64,000 bases of DNA from Cystobasidiopsis lactophilus (taxonomy: Eukaryota; Basidiomycota; Agaricostilbomycetes; Agaricostilbales; Chionosphaeraceae), in contig BCIO01000005.1 in NCBI GenBank assembly GCA_001599975.1, positions 806,001 to 870,000 on the forward strand, in the 5' to 3' direction. The notes beneath the pieces are model-generated. The model did no database searches. It saw only the letters and a list, made by a program, of their open reading frames with translations, and was not told the origin of the DNA. How positions within the stretch are numbered: the first letter of the stretch is position 1; every line of letters starts with the position of its first letter. The translations under genes and the position numbers were made by a program. This document shows, in pieces, positions 13,519-22,986 of the stretch.

Positions 13519-14819
13519 CTAGGCAGTTCTTAAAACGGCGATGGGTGGGCGAACACTGCCCAGAATGGCGAGGGTCGCTGCATCGTCCAGCGTGGTGCTT
13601 GAGTATCGAAGGCTGAGGATGACCTTCCGAAGTCTTGGCAAGTGCTGATTGATCTCCATCAGCGCGCCCGGCATCGGAGTCCGAAGAACGCCCGGGTGCA
13701 GCTCCAACTCTTCGACGTTGGGCGGCAAGAGGCGCTTATCGACCAATGCGTCCAGTAAGGCCCAGCGAGGCGTGCTCGAGTACGAATGTAATACGAGCCG
13801 TCGGACGGAGGTCATGAGAGGGAGAATCTTGGGGAGTAGCTCGTCGCGCGCGACCGCCACCAAAGTGAGGGCCGTGAGGAGGGCGGGGTCGACGCCGTTC
13901 ATGGACGGGTTGGACAAGTTAGGCCGGGCCATCCACACCGCTTCGAGTTCTAGCTGCTTGCGGTTTGGGAAGAGCTGCAGGAAGAAGGCGAAAGGAGCGT
14001 GCGACGTTCCCGGATCCTGCTGCAGCTTCAACCGGTCCAGCCTCTTGCCCAGCTTTTCAAAGTTTTGCAAGGTCGAAGGTGGTTTCTTGGAATGTAAGAT
14101 AGAAATAGAAAGGTCTGATTCGCCATCGTCAGCGGCCGTGTATGTCAAATGAGTAAACGAAGTCCAGTAGGGACCAACCTTTTAAGCAAGGCAAGAGGGC
14201 AGCGAAGTGTCGGATGCGCGATGGACGAGCGTCGACCACGTACTCGATCTGAGGGCGCACTTTTTGGTCAGGACGCCTGGAATTCTTTCGAGGAAACACC
14301 AACCTCCAGAGTTGTAACATTCTGCAGGCAATTCTTTTCCAAGCGGAGTTTGGGTGCGAGTTTCAGCGCATTGTTGGATAAAGATCTTCGTGAGAGCACA
14401 CTTAGGCTAAGGATGGGCGCTAGACAGTTCAGTGCGAGGGTGCTCACAGTTTTATTAGATTGGGCATCAGCTTCAACATTTCGACCAGGACCTCCTTCTG
14501 CGATAGATCGGACTCGTCGGACAGAGCATCGATGCCACTGTGCGCCAGCATTAGATCCAGAAAACCCGTCGAGCCCGAGATCGGTTGCATACAGCAGGAG
14601 CGTGAGGGTAAAGCGGCCATAATCTTTGTCGCGCAGAACAGCCACAAACTTGTCAAGACGACTTGCAGACCAATATTCCCGGAACGAAATCTGGGCAAAG
14701 AGGCGCTTCGTGGCGGGCAGCTGCCAGACTGTCGAAACTCGAGAGAGGGTCACAAGGTCTGGCACGGCAAAGCTACCGGCGTCCAGAATGAGCTCGACTA
14801 TGTCGATAGGCAAGTCCAT
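13519..14819 (-). CDS. F-box-like protein
   Basis: Five exons: 14819-14593, 14537-14448, 14400-14300, 14259-14179, 14114-13519; 364 aa. The N-terminus MDLPIDIVELILDAG, then LVTLSRVSTVWQLPATKRLF, has the F-box pattern. The rest is leucine-rich with LRR-like spacing (VEELELHPGVL, LRKVILSLRYSS). The first intron is 55 nt with a ctaat branch site. The second acceptor is ambiguous between 14407 and 14401, both in frame, and the third intron is only 40 nt. Divergent from CPA1. Substrate unknown. Confidence 0.65.
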
Positions 14820-15119
14820 AGCATGGTTTGAGCTGCTTTCTGAGAATGCCGAGTCTGCTCGCGACCACAAGCTGGCTGCCGCTGAGAAAGAGGGAGTCAG
14901 GCCGCAAAAAACTCTTCTGAGGCCGACCACGCTGATTCGTTGATGTTCACTGTAAGTTCGAGGTCCTGGAGCGTCGAGGACGTTGCTAAGAGTGGCGCGC
15001 GCAGGACGTCGTCGCTCAAGACTACTTGTCGGATCAGATATTCAAGAACCGGCTGTTTTAGAAGCGCAAACCCCTTCTCGCGCTCCCCTTGCATACTCCC
15101 TCCTCTTCTACCACTCAAA
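14820..15119 (+). promoter_or_regulatory. CPA1 promoter and leader with spliced attenuator uORF
   Basis: 300 bp between the divergent F-box-like start and the CPA1 ATG. It contains the uORF below, so only about 123 bp is left for a shared promoter. The uORF stop lies 58 nt before the CPA1 start, a spacing that suits ribosome stalling control. Confidence 0.7.
14943..15061 (+). CDS. Arginine attenuator peptide uORF (spliced)
   Basis: ATG at 14943, exons 14943-14951 and 15005-15061, joined across a 53-nt GTAAGT-CAG intron; 21 residues. It contains QDYLSDQIF. In Neurospora arg-2 and yeast CPA1, the leader peptide with the core QDYLSDH.W stalls the ribosome when arginine is high and lowers synthesis of the downstream enzyme. 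The core Asp-Tyr-Leu-Ser-Asp is kept. The tryptophan that follows in both model peptides is phenylalanine here, and His is Gln. Unspliced, the ATG frame differs from the attenuator frame, so splicing is needed to make the peptide. Confidence 0.85.
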
Positions 15120-16725
15120 ATGGCCTTTGTCTCGCTGCGGGCCTCTGCCGGCCGGAGCACCCGCCTCGCGCGCCCAGCTCTGGCGAGCCGCGCCTTGGCC
15201 ACGGCCGCCCAGGACGCCTTCCCCCATCTCAAGAACAAGCTTGTCGAGACCGATGGCCAGCCTGCTGCCCTGCGCCTCAAGACCGGCGAGGTCTTCAAAG
15301 GCACCAGCTTCGGTGCCAACCGCTCCGTGTTCGGCGAGACCGTTTTCTCCACTTCGATCACCTCGTACACCGAGTCCATGACCGACCCCTCTTATCTCTC
15401 TCAGCTCCTCGTCTTCACCACTCCCATGATCGGCAACTACGGCGTGCCGGCCAACAACCTCACCGCCGATCAGGCGCAATCGGGTCCGAACGTCTTCTTG
15501 GAGTCGGATGGAATCAAGTGCGCGGGCGTGGTGGTGTCTGATGTCGCGGCTCGTTACTCGCACTACCAAGCCGTCGAGAGTCTCTCGGAGTGGTGCGTGC
15601 GCTACAACGTGCCAGGCATCACTGGCGTTGATACCCGCGCCATCACCTCCCTGCTCCGCCAACAGGGCTCGACGCTGGGCAAGCTGGCCATTGGAGCTTC
15701 GGAAGTCGACAAGCCCGTCGAAGACTCCGAGTACTGGGACCCATCCAAGGAAAACCTCGTGGCCCAGGCTTCGACCAAGGAGGTCTACACCTTGAACCCG
15801 GAGGGCGACGTTAAGATTGCGCTGCTCGACTTTGGCGCCAAGGCCAATATTGTCCGCTCCCTCGTCAAGCGCAACGCCGCCGTCACCGTCTTCCCTTGGG
15901 ACTTTGATTTCAATACGGTCCGCGACGACTACGATGGGCTCTTCCTCTCCAACGGCCCTGGTGACCCGATCCACTGCACCAAGGCTGTCGTCAACGTTCG
16001 CAAGACGCTCGACGAGTGGCGCAAGCCCATCTTTGGCATCTGCATGGGTAACCAGATCTTGGGCCTGGCTGCCAAGCTCGAAACCTACCGCATGACCTTT
16101 GGCAACCGCGGCCACAACCAGCCCGTCCTGGCGCTGGCTTCGTCTGGTTCCATCGTCGCTGGCCGCGTCTATATCACGAGCCAGAACCGTGAGTGCCTGT
16201 CTTGGTGCATGCACATTCATGAGCTAATACCTGCGGCCCTCAGACCAATACGCTCTCAAGCTAATTGACCCCTTCCCGGAAGGATGGGAGCCCTGGTTCA
16301 TCAATGCCAACGTACGCTGATTCCTCAGCGATTCTGCTGCCCCACATGAGTCTGAAATGTCTTTCAGGACTCGAGCATCGAGGGCATCAAGAGCACCAAG
16401 GAGAGCGGCAAGCTGGTCTGGGCTGCTCAATTCCATCCTGAGTGAGTGCTTTGATGCATCCATCGTCTGCACAGCTGGTAATGATGTCAACCACCCCTTA
16501 GGTCTGCTGGTGGCCCCTTGGACACAATGTGAGTGGAACGCGGTTGGCCGTAGCTTTGCACAACTGATGTTATCCCATGGCCTTTCTCACAGGTCCCTCT
16601 TTGACGACTACGTCGGAGTCTGCCGCGCCCTTAAGAGCGGCGGTGACTCGTCTTCCCCGAGCGCCATCTTCCACGCCCCGGTCCACAAGCTCCACCGTGG
16701 CCGCACCATTGCTGTTGCCGCTTGA
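15120..16725 (+). CDS. CPA1: Arginine-specific carbamoyl-phosphate synthase, small (glutaminase) subunit
   Basis: Five exons: 15120-16188, 16244-16311, 16368-16441, 16502-16528, 16593-16725; 456 aa. The first 30 or so residues are rich in Arg, Ser and Ala with no acid, a likely mitochondrial presequence. The class I glutaminase shows FGICMGNQ with the nucleophile cysteine, GHNQPV, and the catalytic HPE of FHPE; GGPLDTM and FDDY follow. It releases ammonia from glutamine for the large subunit, making carbamoyl phosphate for arginine. Exon 4 is only 27 nt but restores the conserved SAGGPLDT segment. Regulation by the upstream attenuator is very likely. Confidence 0.95.

Positions 16726-17325: not shown

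Positions 17326-22986
<5,661 letters not shown>

Follow-up and report, generated by a model that had tools for sequence, protein, structure and literature searches.

The window analyzed, a 64,000-nucleotide stretch of the Cystobasidiopsis lactophilus genome, contains an arginine-type carbamoyl-phosphate synthase small-subunit gene preceded by a leader in which a short upstream open reading frame (uORF) is predicted to be assembled by splicing. Joining five predicted exons produced a clean 456-amino-acid translation that contained the Pfam domains CPSase_sm_chain (E = 1.4e-42) and GATase (E = 2e-25) and whose best PDB sequence matches were carbamoyl-phosphate synthases. Judged by its sequence, the gene at 15120 is CPA1/arg-2. 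The first 34 residues of the encoded protein were basic (a single acidic residue, net charge +4); mitochondrial presequences are often basic, and the CPA1 N terminus would in this respect resemble one. In the whole genome (22.1 Mb, 8 contigs), a second CPSase-small-chain-like region was found on contig 1 (2254220-2255128), which was 41% identical to CPA1 and probably corresponds to the pyrimidine-pathway enzyme. A divergent ORF (14268-14819, minus strand) showed a weak F-box-like match (E = 0.056, under the cut-off), and its ATG lies only ~300 bp from that of CPA1, leaving a short intergenic region. A long ORF elsewhere in the window (19627-20877, plus strand) contained SNF2-helicase-like motifs and, by eye only, resembles a CHD1-type chromatin remodeller. 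Two exons of the acetyl-CoA synthetase of this genome had PDB chain 5ifi, a Cryptococcus protein, as their best and second-best match, respectively, which hints at basidiomycete kinship but is no proof of it. The features of the CPA1 gene and its leader are as follows.

14894-14899, minus strand: TGACTC hexamer
14943-14951, plus strand: exon 1 part of the uORF, ATG TTC ACT (MFT), in the context TTG-ATG, with a purine absent at -3
14943-15119, plus strand: unspliced frame (ORF list), 59 stop-free codons into CPA1, a potential N-terminal extension
14952-15004, plus strand: predicted intron (splice-pair scoring), 53 nt, phase 0, GTAAGT...GCTAAG...GCAG
14987-14989, plus strand: TAA in frame with the core and 5' of it, in unspliced RNA
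15005-15061, plus strand: 3' portion of the uORF (exon 2), DVVAQDYLSDQIFKNRLF plus the stop TAG, with a Pfam Leader_CPA1 match (residues 8-18) under the cut-off
15017-15034, plus strand: putative attenuator core QDYLSD (pattern search and translation)
15037, plus strand: final intron base at an alternative acceptor, belonging to the second-best splice pair
15062-15119, plus strand: spacer of 58 nt from the uORF stop to the CPA1 ATG
15120-16725, plus strand: CPA1, arginine-type carbamoyl-phosphate synthase small subunit, 456 aa (Pfam domains, PDB sequence matches, and splice scoring)
15120-16188, 16244-16311, 16368-16441, 16502-16528, and 16593-16725, plus strand: predicted CPA1 exons, chosen from sequence

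The spliced uORF (14943-14951 joined to 15005-15061) encodes 21 residues, MFTDVVAQDYLSDQIFKNRLF, followed by TAG at 15059-15061, 8 codons past the QDYLSD core. All coordinates of the original prediction, which had placed a 21-residue uORF with QDYLSD 58 nt 5' of CPA1, were reproduced. Both strands of the 22.1-Mb genome were searched with a QDYLSD pattern (serine as TCN only) and with a wider core pattern (any serine codon and a broader residue 4), and each produced one match, that in the CPA1 leader; the reversed control of each pattern had no matches in the genome. The number of QDY[LI]SD matches expected by chance was about 2.3e-6 per 300 nt and 0.34 per whole genome. Codon use in the spliced uORF was gene-like, with 19 of 1621 short ORFs scoring as high.

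Among 24736 Pfam models, Leader_CPA1 (PF08252) was the peptide's only match up to an E value of 1 (E = 0.045; 13.6 bits, short of the curated 18.5-bit cut-off), and with a profile of 23 positions, missing that cut-off is not decisive on homology. A six-frame, intron-blind search of the genome with PF08252 produced no matches, which is unsurprising because the peptide is split and scores below the threshold. The peptide had no matches to PDB sequences up to an E value of 10. Very probably, the leader peptide represents a diverged arginine attenuator peptide (AAP), and we infer that its uORF lies within the transcribed CPA1 leader.

In the unspliced sequence, the reading frame of the core is interrupted by TAA 14987-14989, and a script check of the nine codons between this stop and the core (14990-15016) found neither ATG nor near-cognate starts, so that the whole core would be reachable from such starts only once the RNA is spliced. 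This bears out the earlier proposal that the ATG and the core are joined only by removal of a 53-nt intron. The candidate intron (14952-15004) ranked first of the 224 GT/GC-AG pairs in 14820-15119, with a score (20.1) above that of 45 of 76 reference introns, and 0.4% of 14639 sampled background pairs scored as high. A splice pair as good was held by 55 of 2000 shuffled leaders, which makes the pair alone moderately unusual; the intron by itself is unconvincing for this reason, and it is the joint fit of the intron, ATG, core, and stop that convinces. Stretch 14952-15004 is predicted to be removed from the mRNA, which would make the AUG-initiated frame continuous.

Reference introns were drawn from 264 kb of the genome, the window included, using gene-like codon use flanking a frame break in place of RNA. 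An intron search with any GT donor produced 253 raw junctions and was too noisy, and donors were narrowed to GT[AG].G[TC], with which 77 junctions were obtained from 1693 sites (76 introns after merging). With two control donors, junctions arose at 20 of 2706 sites for one and at 10 of 2855 for the other, so that roughly a twelfth to a sixth of the reference introns may be false; the set is also biased by the donor-type restriction and by a length ceiling of 85 nt. The median reference length was 60 nt (5th to 95th percentile, 52 to 72), and CTRA occurred close to the 3' end of 46 of the 76 introns; a control stretch contained it in 11 of 76. The second-best splice pair in the leader (14952-15037, score 17.5) would delimit an intron of 86 nt, a length that the 85-nt ceiling places outside the range on which the reference set can judge. 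Splicing to the acceptor at 15037 would excise the core without a frameshift, and the uORF would shrink to 10 residues, MFTIFKNRLF.

The unspliced ORF that begins at ATG 14943 extends to 16268, and the 177 nt (59 codons) that precede the CPA1 ATG are in frame with it. The original prediction of a core-less uORF in unspliced RNA proved wrong, since this frame (14943-16268) has no uORF stop and enters CPA1; intron retention would give a leader-CPA1 fusion with 59 additional residues and no separate uORF. Splicing would leave 124 nt between the uORF and CPA1 AUGs and put them in different reading frames. It follows from the sequence that any unspliced cytoplasmic mRNA would bypass the attenuator and encode an N-extended CPA1.

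From 14820 onward, four ATGs were found, at 14823, 14846, 14943, and 15120 (that of CPA1). The base at position -3 is T at the uORF AUG and A at the CPA1 AUG, which fits leaky scanning past the former. A start-context model built from 43 long ORFs, itself a weak model, scored the uORF AUG as average (21 of 43 reference starts were lower), and the 43 reference starts showed no purine preference at -3, so that leaky scanning past the uORF AUG is no more than a possibility. A possible further uORF (14846-14920; MPSLLATTSWLPLRKRESGRKKLF and a stop) lies upstream of the AAP uORF. Its ATG has A at -3 and a context score of 2.65, versus -0.09 for the AAP AUG, and it would be relevant only if transcription begins 5' of it.

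Folding of the unspliced leader RNA (14900-15160) was no more stable than that of shuffled sequences (z = +1.69; 195 of 200 shuffles were at least as stable), so that an RNA-structure switch is not indicated. The sole Rfam match in 14700-15300 was on the opposite strand and scored below the cut-off (15.9 bits; cut-off, 80). The minus-strand TGACTC at 14894-14899 corresponds to a Gcn4/CPC1-like core; as a possible Gcn4/CPC1-like site in the CPA1 leader it is weak evidence, because 23 such hexamers occur on the two strands of the 64-kb window.

Relatives of the CPA1 protein were sought in two sequence collections. One locus in viral_contigs encoded a match (46% identity), and at least 593 stretches in genome_contigs matched, at least 584 of which encode a relative. 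The best 80 of these at least 593 matches were all titled bacterial (43 to 49% identical) and were for this reason useless for comparison of fungal leaders; no fungal CPA1 relatives were present in the viral_contigs match or among those best 80. Two AAP DNA patterns had no matches in viral_contigs.

The locus resembles the AAP of Neurospora arg-2 and yeast CPA1 (PF08252) in having a short uORF 5' of an arginine carbamoyl-phosphate synthase small-subunit gene, a QDYLSD core that includes the critical Asp, and a stop shortly past the core. It may differ in the predicted intron after codon 3, and it differs in the Pfam score below the cut-off and in an unspliced frame that fuses to CPA1. The AAPs of Neurospora and yeast have Trp and His where this peptide has Phe and Gln, two replacements that had been pointed out in advance and are present in the translation. 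The position three residues past the core, Trp-19 in Neurospora, is occupied by Phe, which may weaken the arginine response, and Gln-Ile-Phe-Lys stands in place of the His-Leu-Trp-Arg of the Neurospora peptide. In Neurospora work of 2010 ascribed to Spevak, this Trp is reported to be essential, and the reported essentiality rests on Ala and Pro substitutions.

Published systems offer further points of comparison. In fungi, the AAP is described as stalling the ribosome at the uORF stop when arginine is high, with ribosomes leaking past when arginine is low (PMC11550727). The Cryptococcus report attributes a conserved AAP uORF to CPA1/arg-2 orthologues, Cryptococcus included, and, citing Hood 2007, describes it as a verified repressor of a reporter in Neurospora extract (PMC7049704). 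The Cryptococcus CPA1-homologue uORF (CND01050) is, like the one here, a leader uORF, and is called a conserved AAP there; in both Cryptococcus species it was strongly ribosome occupied with the main ORF repressed, and mRNA of the CPA1 homologue rose 5-fold in a upf1 deletion (PMC7049704). Cryptococcus introns average 63 nt in genes and 118 nt in leaders and 3' UTRs according to the same report (PMC7049704), and the 53-nt uORF intron is closer to the former. The conserved aspartate reported as critical to AAP function (PMC8370653) is present in the QDYLSD of this leader. An arginine-responsive peptide that resembles the AAP and depends on one Asp is described for the uORF of Toxoplasma ApiAT1, which, unlike CPA1, is an arginine transporter gene in a parasite far from fungi, and its authors state that any function shared with the AAP would be convergent evolution (PMC8370653). 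An intron inside an AAP uORF or read-through from an AAP into CPA1 was not seen in the literature searched, which covers the primary AAP papers in part, so that the AAP-uORF intron is at most a candidate novelty.

The reading favored here, to which a probability of roughly 0.77 was assigned from the sequence evidence, is that the CPA1 leader carries an AAP uORF with a small, ordinarily spliced intron in it and that arginine-dependent stalling on this uORF represses CPA1. On the spliced mRNA, some scanning ribosomes would initiate at the uORF AUG and produce the 21-residue peptide. With high arginine, the nascent QDYLSD-type peptide would stall the ribosome at the uORF stop, blocking scanning to CPA1 and probably exposing the CPA1 mRNA to nonsense-mediated decay, whereas with low arginine, ribosomes would leak past or resume and CPA1 would be produced. 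Were the intron retained, the uORF AUG would read into CPA1, and the unspliced mRNA would escape attenuation. The original interpretation held in part: an AAP-type uORF whose ATG and core would be joined by splicing does precede CPA1, with Gln and Phe at the two replaced positions, but the account given of unspliced RNA did not hold; splicing and the arginine response are put forward as predictions.

A purely coincidental hexapeptide match and splice pair, with no AAP in the CPA1 leader, is highly improbable. The missed Pfam cut-off and the equally good splice pairs in 55 of 2000 shuffled leaders would be compatible with coincidence, but the ~2.3e-6 QDY[LI]SD matches expected per 300 nt, the uniqueness of the core in the genome, and the fit of gene, frame, spacing, and stop all argue against it. 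Less remote, and still doubtful, is a real and spliced uORF that has lost its arginine response through the Trp-to-Phe change and a different C-terminal end and now exerts modest constitutive repression of CPA1. The replacement of a residue reported as essential in Neurospora and the subthreshold Pfam score point in this direction; QDYLSD is nonetheless intact, codon use is gene-like, Phe is a conservative aromatic change, and the reported essentiality of Trp was based on Ala and Pro substitutions.

Splicing was also considered as a regulated second switch, in which intron retention or splicing to the 15037 acceptor would drop the stall peptide and CPA1 would be made despite arginine, either N-extended or behind the core-less 10-residue uORF. 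This was judged unlikely. It is consistent with the 59 open codons into CPA1, with a second-best splice pair that removes the core in frame, and with the basic charge of the extension (+9), which is like that of mitochondrial presequences. An open in-frame leader is, however, compatible with chance (probability of 0.044 from leader composition, or 0.086 from genomic ATGs, as 1843/7171 = 0.257, divided by 3), and 202 of 1000 stop-free shuffled leaders were as basic as the extension. The codon score of the extension was noncoding-like (-0.137, where the opening 59 codons of CPA1 scored +0.263) and unremarkable, with 373 of 1843 open ATG frames scoring as low or lower, and the main splice sites of 14952-15004 are not weak, being ordinary to good. 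The leader-CPA1 fusion is probably not selected, and regulated splicing of the leader, which the original prediction had raised as a second switch, is conceivable but unsupported. That a single AUG has two fates chosen by splicing, an arginine-sensing stall peptide or an un-attenuated CPA1 extended by 59 residues, is similarly a long shot; if true, splicing would set both the gain of arginine feedback and the N terminus of CPA1.

Under the favored reading of an ordinarily spliced AAP uORF, the C. lactophilus leader would contain a stalling-peptide control element of the classic type that comes into being only through splicing; ORF scans of unspliced sequence would on that account miss it. The natural Trp-to-Phe change would offer a ready test of how much peptide the stall needs, and the layout of the leader would make a splicing-dependent bypass of metabolic feedback directly testable.
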